A DNA stretch of 53,181 bases from Chitinispirillum sp. (lineage in GTDB: Bacteria; Fibrobacterota; Chitinivibrionia; Chitinivibrionales; Chitinispirillaceae). Of this stretch, positions 1,934 to 53,181 are shown piece after piece. The position numbers were made by a program, and so were the translations under genes. Location of the stretch: contig SKJJ01000141.1 of NCBI GenBank assembly GCA_007115975.1, forward strand, positions 1 to 53,181, written 5' to 3'. Under the pieces are notes generated by a model. It saw only the letters and a list, made by a program, of their open reading frames with translations. It was not told the DNA's origin and did no database searches. The stretch's first letter is position 1. Each line of letters starts with the position of its first letter.

Positions 1934-3402
1934 TGATTATCACTCTCCAGAGAAAGCCGGTTTATCAGATGCATTGCAAAGCACTGGAGATCGGCAACTA
2001 TACGGGTTTTCTTGTTACGTAAGAAGTTATGGGCCAGAAGGATAGGAACGGCAATAATCAGTCCGGTCTCAGTAGTTACCAGCGCCTGAGAGATACCGCC
2101 AGCAAGCAGCTTGGGATCACCTGTACCATAGGTAGTAATAACATCAAAAAGGGTAATCATACCGGTAACGGTTCCCAAAAGTCCCATCAGAGGTGCCACT
2201 GCAGCCAATACGGCGAGGGTATTGAGGTGGCGTCCAAGGGAAGAGGTCTGGGCAAGTAGAATCTCCTTTGCGACATCTTCAGCGGCCTCTCTTCCGGAAC
2301 CGATTGTTGTAACAATCGACATTCCGACTTTTGACGGCATACTTTTTTTTGATTCAAGAAACGATTTAAGACCTTCAATATCTCTGTTATCCAGAAGTTT
2401 ATCCGCCTGTGCAACTATTTTCCTGTTGGCAGGAAGCTTTCCACCTAAATGAAATATTTTTATAAAGACAAGTATCAGGGCATACAAAGGTATGGTGATA
2501 AGAGGATACATCACGGGCCCACCGGACCTGAAAAACTCTCCTGCTTTAGCCTGCAGCGATATTGCCTTCTGTTGCACCAGTGCAGAGGAGTGTTCATTTT
2601 GTAAAATATCAACCAGCACCGGCCCATTAATGGATTGGGAATCTATCCACCCAAAAAAATTATTCCGGAGAAATCTCTCGAGTACAGGAGTCTCCACTTT
2701 TGCTACAGAATACCTGGTGTGCCCCATCCTCCCGGTTTGCCTTACAAAATAGAACTCTCCGGATTCTTCAAGTCCGTAGCCGAACACATTCCCGAACCGT
2801 GCAAACATCAGCTGCAAGGTTTCGCCCTGATCAGAGATTGATCTGCTGCTTTCAAAGCTTACCGCATTTGCCTGCACCAACCTTTTGTCAACAAACTTCT
2901 GAAAATCTTTAATTACCGAAACAGCATTTCCCGATTCAGAAAAAGTGCTGCGGATATTTTCCAGTTCAAGCCTGTCTTGCTCCATACGCACGGGAAAGGA
3001 GCCGGATAATCTATCGGCATAGCTTCCAAAGATATCGTTAATGACGGCTCTGGTGTAGCGCCACTCATCCTGTTTGATTCTGAGGTCAGCCTGTGCGCTT
3101 TCAAGCCGTCTTTGAGCGGCCAGTTTTTCCTCACGCAGAAATGTCAACCGATTGAACATTTCACTCTGCAGATCATTAAGGGCACCTATCTCTTGTTTGT
3201 CTTTTTCTCTCTGCCTTACCGACTCCTGCCTCACTCTCCAACGTTCAGCAGTTTCCCACTGCAATGAGTCTCTTGAAGCCCTTACGGTCTCTTTTAAAGC
3301 ATTCATTCGATCCAACAGTTCTTTGCTGTTTGCGCGTTGGTTCGCATTTAAGAGTGTTGCCGAAAACAGCAGCAGAGCAGTAAGCAGTGTGACTTTTTTC
3401 AT
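1930..3402 (-). CDS. ttpC: TtpC-like long MotA/TolQ/ExbB protein
   Basis: The 490-residue protein begins with a signal peptide (1-20), then a coiled-coil periplasmic region rich in Arg/Glu/Gln (about 25-130) and a further periplasmic domain to about 290. A C-terminal ExbB-like membrane region follows, with APLMGLLGTVTGMITLF and GISQALVTTETGLIIAVPI. This architecture is that of TtpC, the fourth component of the Vibrio TonB2 complex, which links ExbB2D2-TonB2 function to the periplasm. Gene order (DUF3450, TtpC, ExbB, ExbD, TonB) also matches. It overlaps both neighbours by 4 bases. Assignment to TtpC rests on architecture and context; a generic long ExbB is the alternative. Confidence 0.85.
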   Translation of the reverse strand: MKKVTLLTALLLFSATLLNANQRANSKELLDRMNALKETVRASRDSLQWETAERWRVRQESVRQREKDKQEIGALNDLQSEMFNRLTFLREEKLAAQRRLESAQADLRIKQDEWRYTRAVINDIFGSYADRLSGSFPVRMEQDRLELENIRSTFSESGNAVSVIKDFQKFVDKRLVQANAVSFESSRSISDQGETLQLMFARFGNVFGYGLEESGEFYFVRQTGRMGHTRYSVAKVETPVLERFLRNNFFGWIDSQSINGPVLVDILQNEHSSALVQQKAISLQAKAGEFFRSGGPVMYPLITIPLYALILVFIKIFHLGGKLPANRKIVAQADKLLDNRDIEGLKSFLESKKSMPSKVGMSIVTTIGSGREAAEDVAKEILLAQTSSLGRHLNTLAVLAAVAPLMGLLGTVTGMITLFDVITTYGTGDPKLLAGGISQALVTTETGLIIAVPILLAHNFLRNKKTRIVADLQCFAMHLINRLSLESDNQ

Positions 3403-4202
3403 TCCTTCTCCTCTGTACCGAAGGGAATTTCGACAAACGAAGGAACTGCCTGCCCCATTCTTATCTTTACAGCTTCTATGATACCTGCAGCCATATCAGG
3501 GTCATCACTGATCAACCATTGCACTTCACCCTTGTTATCATACCCGGTCCACAAAGCGATTCGTTGCCCTTTAGGGTCTGCAACGGCTTCAAAGAAGTTT
3601 CCTATCCGAATTCTGTGTACGGTACCACGGATCTGCTGAATCGGAGAATCAGCTTCACTTACATCAATCTCAAAAGAGTGATCTTCTGCTCTGGCAACTA
3701 TCGAGACATACCTCTGAAAAGCCTCGGCATTACCAACTCTACCCGATTCCAGTTCGCTTCTAAGGTGCTGAAGTGTATTGTTTGTTTGCCCGCGAACAGC
3801 CGGTGGCAGCTCTTCGATAATTTTGAGCAGACCAGAACAGGAAGCAATCAACTGTCTTCTGATAGAATTCTGGAGCAGTTCCTGCTGCCGTATGGCTGTT
3901 TCTATACCGGTGACGGCACTTAGCAGTGAGTCTCTTTTGCCTGCGGTAATGTGCGTCTGCTCCCTCAGGGAATCTATTGCATCATTGTAGGACGTTTTTC
4001 TTTGTTCAACTCTTTTGGCGTATTCGCCAAACTCTTTCTGTTCACGCTGTAGTTCAAGGTGATTTCTCTCTCTTTCTGTATTGATTCGCTGTAATTCACT
4101 TTCAAGAGAGGTAATTTCGTTGAGCAGCACGGTATCTGCTTTGAGTGGCGCGATACACCAAGTCACAGCAGCTGTAATAATAACCAATTTTCTAATCATC
4201 AT
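3399..4202 (-). CDS. DUF3450 periplasmic coiled-coil protein
   Basis: The 267-residue protein has a signal peptide (about 1-23), a long heptad-rich region (about 25-115) dominated by Glu/Arg/Gln and a compact C-terminal domain ending in an RIGNFFEAVADPKGQRIALW-type segment. This is the DUF3450 family, typically the first gene of TonB-ExbB-ExbB-ExbD operons. Its role is not firmly established; a periplasmic scaffold for the TtpC/TonB complex is likely. Its stop overlaps the ttpC start by 4 bases. Two adjacent ATG codons begin the frame; a GA-rich stretch precedes them but its spacing is tight, so the exact start is uncertain by one codon. Confidence 0.8.
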   Translation of the reverse strand: MMIRKLVIITAAVTWCIAPLKADTVLLNEITSLESELQRINTERERNHLELQREQKEFGEYAKRVEQRKTSYNDAIDSLREQTHITAGKRDSLLSAVTGIETAIRQQELLQNSIRRQLIASCSGLLKIIEELPPAVRGQTNNTLQHLRSELESGRVGNAEAFQRYVSIVARAEDHSFEIDVSEADSPIQQIRGTVHRIRIGNFFEAVADPKGQRIALWTGYDNKGEVQWLISDDPDMAAGIIEAVKIRMGQAVPSFVEIPFGTEEKE

Positions 4203-8749: not shown

Positions 8750-8850
8750 GAACTATAGCAACACAGTAGTAATGCTCCGCTCACCCTGAGTCAAGGCCCG
8801 CCGGAGTCGGGTGAGCTGAGCATGAAACAAGTCTTACTACCACCTATGCC
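8750..8850. repeat. Repeat R1, copy A
   Basis: A 19-base arm ATGCTCCGCTCACCCTGAG (8772-8790) is identical to the inner arm of copy C (52806-52824). It faces a shortened GGGTGAGCTGAGCAT arm (8809-8823), making a compact hairpin. It lies between the PPC gene and the convergent Na/Pi gene and could end both transcripts. Confidence 0.75.
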
Positions 8851-37248: not shown

Positions 37249-37329
37249 CCGCCGCAGGCTATAGAGACAGTATGTTTTTCCCCTCATTTTTTTTTAGGAA
37301 AGGCTCCCTTGGCGAGGTTCCTCAATCCC

Positions 37330-37496
37330 ATAGGTGTGAAATTGATGATCGTTTCACCCTCCGCTCACCTGCACGGTGCGCCGGAGTCGAAGGGTTCCTT
37401 ATATCCGGACCCCTTTGACCAGGAGCTCAGGGTGAGCGCAAGCATACTACAGTGCTAAACAGGTAACAGAGGTCGCGACCTTAACTTAGCACTTAT
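37330..37496. repeat. Repeat R1, copy B (decayed)
   Basis: It shares blocks with copy C in the same order: ATAGGTGT, CCGCTCACC, GCCGGAGTCGAAGGGTTCC (37380-37398), AGGAGCTCAGGGTGAGCG (37421-37438), AGCATACTA and CCTTAACTTAGCACTTAT (37479-37496). The arms no longer pair perfectly. It lies between two convergent genes. Confidence 0.8.
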
Positions 37497-37526
37497 GGAA
37501 TTCCGCTGGCTCCGGAGCTACTCACC

Positions 37527-50664: not shown

Positions 50665-50880
50665 ACCCCTGGAGAGCCCCCAAAACTCCCTCCCCAGACA
50701 ATGCTATTTGGCACAGAAATGCCAAGCTAACATTATCAATATTCCTTCCAAAGGGCATTTTTGAAAGAGATTGCCATTTTGCCGGAATATAGGGAGACTT
50801 CCGGATAGAGCCACTTGCTACCACCAATAGTGAGAACATATGCATAGACAAGATCTACAAATCCCCCCTCGGGGGCTTTT
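50665..50880. repeat. Repeat R2, inverted-core copy
   Basis: Left flank GGAGAGCCCCCAAAA (50671-50685), core of about 105 bases, then right flank GACTTCCGGATA (50796-50807) and ATGCATAGACAAGATCT (50840-50856) with a C/G-rich hairpin and TTTT. The flanks match the 53.0-kb copy directly. The core between them (for example GCTAACATTATCAATATT at 50726-50743) matches that copy only as reverse complement. Confidence 0.8.
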
Positions 50881-51014: not shown

Positions 51015-52736
51015 ATGTATACAGATAATAATCCCAAACTGCTCGAAAAGTACTCCTCTGCCGTAACGCTCTCAGATATGGAGATGTTTTTGTTTCCGGA
51101 ACTGATCTATTCTCTTGTTATGGCGAATATAATGTCACCACGGCTCTGGTTGTGGAGAGAGGACCCATGGTTTAAAAAAATCGACAAAATGAACCCCCAG
51201 CGAAGAATCCAGCGACTGAAACAGTTCATTATGGATCACTTTTCCTTTAATCTTGACCTTGAAACCTGGGGGCTTACCACCAAAGAGAGCGAGCTGTCAC
51301 GATTCGAAACGTTTATAGACCGTTCCGTGCTCTCCGAAAGCAATGCTCTTTTTGGCTATGAAGGGGATAAATACTATTTCGACATCGACATACGACGCCA
51401 CTTCGGACTTGACAAATACACCTCCGATATCATCCCCTACTGGAAAACAGAGACTCTTGAGGCGATGGAGGCATTCAGGTTCAAGGACAATTACCCTGCA
51501 GGGGCCGGAGAGTGTGTCTCCCTTGCAGCCCTTTATGCAGCTGCATCATTTGTCGTGGCAAAAATCCCTTTGGGGGATATCTATCTGATGACCACTCCTC
51601 TTCACTCGCAAAACTACCTTGATGTCAATGATGGTATTCTGACCAATAACCGCCGCATCGTAACCAAGACAATGTGGTATAACGGAACAGAGCTTTCTGC
51701 CAAAGCCCGCAGAGCGCTGCAAAATGAACAGATCACACTGGTGGCACACAACAGTGGTTATATCCATACCACCTACGATAGAGCCACTATCAACCCCCAG
51801 GCTTACAGCACATTCAAAAGTAAGCTGCGCAACTATCTTAAAACAGAGATTAATTATGAGGTTATCGCCAACTTTCTTCGCTACAACTCAAAGCTTCAGT
51901 CCTGTTTTCAACTGACCCATGATTGTTGCGGAAAACCACGGTATATCGATGCAGAAAAAGTCTACAGCTATGAACACTCGAGTAAATTCCGTGTGGGCAG
52001 CTCAACCCAGAGCCACCTGCTCCAGGAAATAGAGGAAGATGACTATTATACCGAGGCTAACCCCAACAGAATTCTTCTCGAGGAGTTGGAGCGTTTCTTT
52101 ATAGAAAACCGGGTTCTTGTTGATGATGCTGAAACAATCGATAAATTGCTTAACCTCCTTCACCATAACTGTTTTAATGTTCAGACGGTTGTCCATGACC
52201 TGATTGAATTCTGTAAAATCACCCCCCGACTGCCCTCAGACAAGAAATATTTTAAAGAGGAGAAGACCATAGAGATGGATGGAGTAGGCGGCGCAGAAGA
52301 AGCGCAGGCCTATCTGCAGAGTATCCGTAACGAGAGTCTTATAGCGGACCTGGCATTTTCGGCTTTCAGAGATCTATCCACCACTCCATGGAAGCCATTC
52401 CTGAAAGCGGCTCTTCAGAGAAATCCTGTGTGCCTGCACGCGACAGAATCCAAAGATCTTAACAACATCTACTCTACTCTTATCTCCTTTCCAAACGAAT
52501 CGATCTACCCGGGCGATACCCGTTTAGCCCAACCCGATGAAGTCTGGAATTTTGGGCGTGGAGATGGGCTGGAGAGAGCACTGTGCCTGCTCGCTGTTTA
52601 CACCACCCGCTACCAAAGAGCGTTCAACTTCTCAATTGATGACAGGACGGTAATAGTTACCTTGGACGGACAAGAGTACCGGTTCCCCACCCGCAAAGCG
52701 GTCCCGCCGCCACGGATGTCTGATTTTGATTTTTGA
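51015..52736 (+). CDS. Unrecognised 573-residue protein with possible transglutaminase-like site
   Basis: Soluble, no signal peptide or membrane helix. The middle contains AGECVSLAALYAAASFVV (Cys167), then GDIYLMTTPLHSQNYLDVNDG (His197, Asp203 or Asp206). This Cys-(~30)-His-(6 to 9)-Asp order resembles the transglutaminase/papain-like triad, but the Asp is closer to the His than usual. Flanking parts are helical (about 10-130 and 350-500), and the C-terminal third holds an EVWNFGRGDGLERALCLL block. I do not recognise a named family. AAGGA lies 10 bases before the ATG. It stands alone between R2 copies. Base composition resembles its neighbours. Confidence 0.7.
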   Translation: MYTDNNPKLLEKYSSAVTLSDMEMFLFPELIYSLVMANIMSPRLWLWREDPWFKKIDKMNPQRRIQRLKQFIMDHFSFNLDLETWGLTTKESELSRFETFIDRSVLSESNALFGYEGDKYYFDIDIRRHFGLDKYTSDIIPYWKTETLEAMEAFRFKDNYPAGAGECVSLAALYAAASFVVAKIPLGDIYLMTTPLHSQNYLDVNDGILTNNRRIVTKTMWYNGTELSAKARRALQNEQITLVAHNSGYIHTTYDRATINPQAYSTFKSKLRNYLKTEINYEVIANFLRYNSKLQSCFQLTHDCCGKPRYIDAEKVYSYEHSSKFRVGSSTQSHLLQEIEEDDYYTEANPNRILLEELERFFIENRVLVDDAETIDKLLNLLHHNCFNVQTVVHDLIEFCKITPRLPSDKKYFKEEKTIEMDGVGGAEEAQAYLQSIRNESLIADLAFSAFRDLSTTPWKPFLKAALQRNPVCLHATESKDLNNIYSTLISFPNESIYPGDTRLAQPDEVWNFGRGDGLERALCLLAVYTTRYQRAFNFSIDDRTVIVTLDGQEYRFPTRKAVPPPRMSDFDF

Positions 52737-52764
52737 TGTGAGTGGATCAGAGCCGTCTCATCGG

Positions 52765-53181
52765 AGCCCCCTAAATCCCATAGGTGTTAAGTTAAGGCTT
52801 GTTTCATGCTCCGCTCACCCTGAGTCCCGACTTTACGTCGGGATCCGCCGGAGTCGAAGGGTTCCTGTACTACATTAAAAAGGGGACAGGAACCCTTCGA
52901 CTAGGAGCTCAGGGTGAGCGGAGCATACTATAGTGTTAAATATATTATAGATCGTTCCTTAACTTAACACCTATGCCCTAAATCCCCCTATATTCCAGCC
53001 AAATGGCAAATCGGTTTAAAAGTGCCTTTTGGAGGGAATACTGATAATGTTAGCCTGACATTTTCTTGCCAGATGGCATTATCGGAGGGGGACTTCCGGA
53101 TACAAACACTCACGTGTGGCCAAAAGTTGATAAAAATTAAATGCATGGGCAAGTTCTTCAAGTCCCCTACCGGGGATTTTA
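52765..53181. repeat. Repeat R2, forward-core copy interrupted by R1 copy C (runs off window edge)
   Basis: Left flank GGAGCCCCCTAAATCCC (52763-52779) is split by the R1 insertion and resumes at 52976. The core (for example GATAATGTTAGCC, 53043-53055) is followed by GACTTCCGGATA (53091-53102) and ATGCATGGGCAAGTTCT (53141-53157). It ends in CCCCTACCGGGGATTTT, a small terminator-like hairpin. Confidence 0.8.
52780..52974. mobile_element. R1 copy C: 195-bp palindromic MITE-like element
   Basis: Outer arms of 18 bp (52780-52797 / 52957-52974), inner arms of 19 bp (52806-52824 / 52908-52926) and central arms of 16 bp (52853-52868 / 52886-52901) are all perfect inverted repeats. A small exact hairpin TCCCGACTTTACGTCGGGA (52825-52843) sits inside. 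CCCTAAATCCC stands on both sides (52769-52779 and 52976-52986), as a target duplication would. It has no coding capacity. Confidence 0.75.

Follow-up and report, generated by a model that had tools for sequence, protein, structure and literature searches.

REP-type palindromic repeats are a known system with which dispersed bacterial hairpin sequences can be compared, and miniature non-autonomous transposable elements (MITEs) are often rich in hairpins as well. Cut-and-paste transposition has been published for the insertion sequence IS231A, whose target reads GGG(N)5CCC. According to the accessible part of one source on the IS4 family, the transposases of this family carry the signature Y(2)R(3)E(6)K as well as D(60-110)D(100-150)E, the ends of the IS231 subgroup read CAT-------AA--TAA--- with a duplication of 10-12 bp (Table 1), and IS231 is concentrated in one phylum (PMC2266710). 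The MIC231 mobile insertion cassettes, as described in the accessible part of a second source, have IS231-type ends and no transposase, and are mobilised in trans by the IS231A transposase (PMC3913671).

This article is concerned with a 197-bp element called copy C, which lies near the end of a contig of 53,181 nucleotides from Chitinispirillum sp. (SKJJ01000141.1; this whole stretch is referred to below as the window). We are confident that copy C is a miniature non-autonomous transposable element, that is a MITE or an empty mobile insertion cassette, of the IS4 family, IS231-like and moved in trans. An original prediction made from the letters of the window had already proposed a non-autonomous element, possibly moved by a transposase encoded elsewhere, and this reading gains from terminal inverted repeats (TIRs) common to full IS4 elements and from a 10-bp duplication that recurs at other copies.

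Architecture of copy C and its target site

Measured from TIR to TIR, copy C occupies positions 52779-52975 of the forward strand, making it 197 bp long and not 195 bp as predicted. It is intergenic and overlaps no open reading frame (ORF) of 60 or more residues; a 573-aa ORF upstream (51015-52736, forward strand) is left unbroken and ends in a stop 32 bp ahead of the left duplication. The left TIR, CATAGGTGTTAAGTTAAGG (52779-52797, forward strand, 19 bp), agrees with the IS231 end consensus at every fixed position, and the right TIR (52957-52975, reverse strand, 19 bp) complements it perfectly. Inside these, a second pair of arms forms a perfect 19-bp match between ATGCTCCGCTCACCCTGAG (52806-52824, forward strand) and 52908-52926 (reverse strand), and an inner hairpin is made of a perfect 17-bp pair, AGTCGAAGGGTTCCTGT (52852-52868, forward strand) with 52886-52902 (reverse strand). 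The three perfect pairs are thus as predicted, with lengths of 19, 19 and 17 bp in place of 18, 19 and 16 bp. The inverted repeats of the supposed near-perfect palindrome are also real, but they are arranged as nested arms with side hairpins rather than as a single continuous palindrome. The predicted fold reaches -118.7 kcal/mol (z -14.9), a value equalled by none of 200 dinucleotide shuffles.

Copy C is flanked by two exact copies of CCCTAAATCC, at 52769-52778 and 52976-52985 (both forward strand). With one base more, the 11-mer CCCTAAATCCC occurs exactly twice on the forward strand of the window (52769 and 52976) and is absent from the reverse strand. The duplication nevertheless measures 10 bp rather than 11, since on the left the TIR already begins, with its first C, at the eleventh base; the exact flanking copies of the prediction therefore stand, and their length is corrected to 10 bp outside the TIR, which is also the commonest length elsewhere.

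Recurrence at other copies was examined in 30 TIR pairs: eight from named genomes, one from a full element of genome G016, seven from the window's own genome, one more from G169 and 13 from a single Brocadiaceae metagenome-assembled genome (MAG), G172. For each locus the pair with the fewest TIR mismatches was used, and L224 had none. Ten-base flanks agreed with at most two mismatches in 18 of the 30 pairs, eight of them perfectly; since the loci were hand-picked, it should be added that including the omitted C210, L100 and L108 (5, 7 and 9 mismatches at 10 bp) makes this 18/33. Weak own-genome pairs (C94, C117 and C113) and every single end were likewise left out, and the weak members retained are L127, whose left end has six mismatches, and C197, whose left TIR has small indels. 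At other lengths the same tolerance gave 1/30 (8 bp), 1/30 (9 bp), 2/30 (11 bp) and 0/30 (12 bp), and left and right flanks taken from different elements matched at 10 bp in only 31 of 870 combinations. All 18 pairs with a 10-bp duplication are short elements; a duplication of 11 bp is found instead at the full G016 element (one mismatch) and at L221 (none). Within the window's own genome, two of seven pairs keep the 10-bp duplication, namely copy C (no mismatch) and C197 (two, with its damaged left TIR), and the remaining five show 5 to 10 mismatches.

When both strands of the 18 sites are considered, the G/C fraction along the target is 0.94, 0.94, 0.75, 0.28 at each of four central positions, then 0.75, 0.94 and 0.94, in other words SSS-WWWW-SSS over 10 bp. 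This is similar to the GGG(N)5CCC of IS231A, but the sites here are one base shorter. In many own-genome copies a CCTAAATCC-like sequence lies beside the left TIR, and part of this flank similarity may reflect a common type of target.

Distribution of the termini and full-length relatives

The window's genome (G000) is a 3.89-Mb assembly in 236 contigs, in which a BLAST search with a 218-bp query gave at least 61 matches (40 of 106 first-look candidates having been scored). With up to three mismatches the TIR itself matches 40 times, against none for the reversed control, so these matches are not due to chance. A search of 167 genomes from the phylum, allowing one mismatch, found the TIR in this genome alone. 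Beyond the phylum, a scan of GTDB genomes for the exact TIR returned 35 stretches in 14 genomes, as counted from the records. They include Brocadiaceae/Kuenenia, other Planctomycetes, Nitrospirae, Acidobacteria, Acidimicrobiia, Chthonomonadaceae and an Akkermansia MAG, a phylum spread that binning errors may inflate, many of these genomes being MAGs. Twelve of the 14 were searched again, and all 12 contained the TIR (at most two mismatches) and none the control, with 82 matches in G172. Viral contigs held no exact match to either the TIR or the inner unit described below. Among the titles and abstract openings found for MITEs in connection with IS4, IS231, anammox or nesting, none describes the copy C element, and the string CATAGGTGTTAAG was met in the accessible text of one paper, on Acinetobacter small RNAs. 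The strings of the inner unit were not found in literature text.

Two further copies lie in the window. Copy B (37329-37497, forward strand, 169 bp) has decayed arms, as predicted: its TIRs carry four and two mismatches, and 8 of the 10 duplication bases differ, leaving none intact. Copy A is a fragment (8760-8848, reverse strand), said in the prediction to keep only the inner hairpin; it does keep the hairpin, together with a single outer end in decayed form, CATAGGTGGTAGTAAGACTTGTTTCATGC, read on the reverse strand. A recent insertion of copy C, also predicted, is plausible and moderately supported: the perfect TIRs and duplication favour it, but the nearest own-genome copy among the candidates scored is only 91% identical. 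Elsewhere in the genome, at C152:11161-11335 (L052) and C29:52766-52875 (L006), the inner palindrome seems by eye to have kept its orientation with the outer arms apparently swapped, and the arms look as if the interior had been inverted through recombination between them.

Which enzyme, then, could have moved such an element? The prediction proposed comparing its ends with those of a full transposon, and such transposons exist. A Nitrospirae MAG holds a 1793-bp insertion sequence (L107) whose TIRs, at 1-19 and 1775-1793, are identical to those of copy C. It encodes a 410-aa protein that matches Pfam DDE_Tnp_1 (2.3e-24) and the NCBIfam IS4-family transposase (5.2e-60), as well as a 112-aa DUF6788 protein. 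In G016, a genome of the same family as that of the window, a 1819-bp element ends on both sides in CATACGTGTTAAGTTAAGC, two mismatches away from the TIR of copy C, and contains a DUF6788 gene and an IS4 transposase frame broken by three stops, 45% identical to that of L107. A third element, in G169, is 1588 bp long and lies at a contig start; it has a long open transposase-like frame and TIRs two mismatches from those of copy C. Over the last 32 bp of the right end, copy C is identical to the G016 element at 27 positions and to L107 at 25. Since the L107 and G169 elements start at contig ends, the duplication is readable at neither. The YREK motif is present in the proteins of both L107 (YMLRWQIELLFKQLK) and G169 (YRLRWQVELIFKQFK), and the DDE spacings of the former are 70 and 135, within D(60-110)D(100-150)E, assuming that the first D of DSTSWD and the D of FDLGYF are catalytic.

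A DUF6788 gene accompanies an IS4-type transposase in two full elements (L107 1348-1686 and L076 1075-1419), the two of the three that were scanned by profile; DUF6788 is named in no paper found by literature search. Contig C154 of G016 (L158, from 2551) holds a relative with the same TIR and the apparent start of a DUF6788 frame (MNPKQRIS), which may have arisen by internal deletion.

The best 20 listed of 1330 plasmid matches to the transposase are 28-31% identical, come mostly from Bacillaceae and relatives and are mostly annotated as IS4-family transposases. The window's own assembly contains no match to the L107 transposase, and across 60 genomes (the own genome included) the only strong match is in G016, with six weak partial matches in G144. 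The only PF01609 (DDE_Tnp_1) match of the own genome, at C192, has an internal stop and no TIR on its stretch even at six mismatches, and is probably not the partner. The partner transposase is lost from the window's genome, unassembled or too diverged.

The interior, the host repeat and rival explanations

The interior of copy C includes an inner unit, GGAACCCTTCGACTAGGAGCTCAGGGTGAGCGGA (52889-52922, forward strand), whose last 29 bases, one of them varying, also form a dispersed repeat without these TIRs. Written as CCTTCGACT(A/G)GGAGCTCAGGGTGAGCGGA, this unit is present nine times in the own genome and once in G001, with two shorter relatives each in G017 and G161, which amounts to 14 places in 4 of 167 genomes. 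A TIR with at most two mismatches is found within 300 bp of three of these places (the window copy, C197 and C29), and the other 11 have six mismatches or more. Two TIR-less units, at C72 and C195, lie inside another outer palindrome containing GGGCTGGGTCAT. With IS231-like ends around a second repeat that is also dispersed without them, copy C is therefore a composite.

Are such interiors a habit of the family? Folded with their TIRs removed, the interiors reach z <= -5 in 19 of 28 pairs (30 shuffles each), as opposed to 1 of 31 neighbouring 150-bp flanks and none of 40 random 160-bp stretches of the window, although some interiors exceed the controls in length and their z may be inflated for that reason. 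With 13 of the pairs drawn from a single genome, a count of sequence types is fairer: 29 interiors fall into eight BLAST clusters, five of which include a member with z <= -5. One of the palindromic interiors holds a stand-alone intergenic repeat, and another a nested second IS231-like element. The association of palindromic interiors with IS231-like TIRs is suggestive only. The broader claim, that in several phyla these TIRs have repeatedly come to surround long palindromic interiors unrelated in sequence (five of eight types), which would imply selection or the capture of palindromes, we regard as doubtful, the odds being against it. If it were true, extended hairpin interiors might be selected, for example by aiding the transposition of a short element or its escape from silencing; alternatively, elements with IS231-like TIRs might capture palindromes preferentially.

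Several loci illustrate the variety of these interiors. In L104 an element at 3250-3412 is nested within 3032-3484, with 18-bp CAT-type ends (CATAAGCGCTAAGATAAG) and 8 of 10 flank bases duplicated. The interiors of L099, L219 and L221, from a Brocadiaceae MAG, fall into one BLAST cluster with those of L104, L116 and L127, from an Acidobacteria MAG of a different phylum, and L099 and L104 have a TCGAATATCGAACAAGGAAT-type palindrome in common.

Copy C was predicted to lie inside a dispersed repeat, R2. It does, R2 running from 52763 to 53181 (forward strand) with copy C and its duplication as an interruption, and continuing to the contig end; but R2 starts only some 6 bp before the duplication, so that copy C occupies the left edge of the repeat and not its middle. 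R2 sequence is seen in the window at 50684-50800 and 52763-53181, and in the own genome on contigs C220, C15, C86, C130 and C195. Six other own-genome copies align over the joined flanks (C220:95173, C15:28296, C86:40341, C130:27184, C195:21711 and C35:50684), whereas the other matches, the window locus aside, fall in parts of the query more to the right. No TIR is present in the 400 bp upstream of any of the six, where the best candidates have 7-8 mismatches of 19. Because CCCTAAATCCC is in the right flank as well, only alignment to the left of this 11-mer counts as evidence of an empty site, and it extends over 6 bp in C15, 5 in C220, 3 in C195, 1 in C86, 0 in C35:50684 and about 10 poorly matching bases in C130. 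The own genome thus has R2 copies at paralogous sites that contain the target sequence but not the element; they are weak as true empty sites because copy C sits at the R2 edge. In the same-genus genome G001, an R2 copy is 68% identical, with a diverged site and no adjacent TIR. The empty sites that the prediction proposed looking for are therefore represented, with moderate weight, by the six paralogous copies, and not by an orthologous site, the left flank having no match in G001.

Could the whole palindrome instead be a REP/BIME-like or other hairpin that stands alone between genes and was spread by a RAYT (Y1_Tnp) or together with a DUF559 gene, its duplication being coincidental? The inner unit does occur without TIRs in G000 and G001, with a shorter relative in G017 and G161, and such repeats may lie near DUF559 genes elsewhere. 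The own genome has one DUF559 match (PF04480) and seven Y1_Tnp matches (PF01797), two of the latter falling in a single broken gene, and a look-alike of the inner unit, CCTTCGACCAGGCTCACTGTGA, stands at C183:1842 (L135), immediately behind the sole DUF559 gene detected there. Yet strict motifs of the unit (two mismatches and one mismatch) are absent from all 22 loci around Y1_Tnp and DUF559 matches (L135-L156, in G000, G001 and G016), where a looser motif adds the C183 look-alike alone, so that the link of the inner repeat to either kind of gene is weak. The outer TIR and the 10-bp duplications fit IS4, and IS4 partners with the same ends disfavour the REP/BIME reading for the outer element. 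For the whole palindrome this reading is very unlikely; the inner unit may be a repeat of that sort.

The position of the element close behind a stop codon and its strong predicted fold (z -14.9) would also suit a functional RNA or a transcription terminator downstream of the 573-aa gene, in place of a transposon. This is highly improbable: the sequence recurs at dozens of scattered places, and Rfam gives no credible match, the sole one being to a microRNA family at 23.4 bits against a cut-off of 88. The hairpin may still have a secondary role as a terminator. It could also be argued from the CCTAAATCC-like sequence adjoining the left TIR in many own-genome copies that CCCTAAATCCC belongs to the end of the element, and hence that no target was duplicated. 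In other genomes, however, the 10-bp flanks vary between elements yet agree within each one, TIR-less R2 copies contain the CCCTAAATCCC sequence once each, and at C4:149 the flank next to the TTTCATG-type arm reads GGATTTAGGG, in the opposite orientation. We consider this last explanation hardly credible.

Proposed mechanism and comparison with known systems

The IS231-like, IS4-family reading of copy C remains our preferred one. Judging from the shared ends, an IS4-type transposase family very probably moved copy C, the own assembly being one in which no such gene was found. Supplied in trans, such a DDE transposase would bind both 19-bp TIRs, excise copy C and insert it at a target of about 10 bp with G/C-rich ends and an A/T-rich middle, in this case CCCTAAATCC at the left edge of R2; repair of the staggered cut would then duplicate the target. 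By analogy with IS231A, the chemistry would be cut-and-paste. The non-coding interior, with its separate dispersed palindromic repeat, was probably acquired through insertion of that repeat or recombination with it.

As expected of a MITE, copy C has the TIRs of a full IS4 element, measures 197 bp with no ORF of 60 or more residues, and has 40 TIR matches in its own genome. As expected of IS4, the duplication is about one helix turn, 10 bp in 18/30 pairs and 11 bp (one mismatch) at the full G016 element. This gives one repeat family of a fragmented assembly a name and a likely mobiliser, allows copies to be sought in other genomes by their TIR and target rule, and widens the range of IS231-like ends to further phyla. 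The one point that might interest transposon specialists is the recurrence of palindromic interiors.

How does copy C compare with the systems already described? It resembles the IS231 subgroup, as far as the accessible part of the source covers it, in its end consensus, in a duplication within the 10-12 bp range, and in the YREK motif and DDE spacing of its partner, and passenger genes are known in this subgroup (PMC2266710); it differs in that the full elements here come from a Nitrospirae MAG, an Acidobacteria MAG and a genome of the window's family. Like MIC231, it combines IS231-type ends with the lack of a transposase, but the accessible part of the source gives MIC231A1 a gene (PMC3913671), whereas copy C has none and is much shorter, and "MITE" is therefore the better word. 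With REP-type repeats it shares an interior made of dispersed intergenic hairpin sequence, and it departs from them in lacking a firm RAYT link among the loci searched and in having the outer ends and duplication of a DDE transposon. Copy C is thus a good but ordinary example of its kind, save for its unusually palindromic interior.
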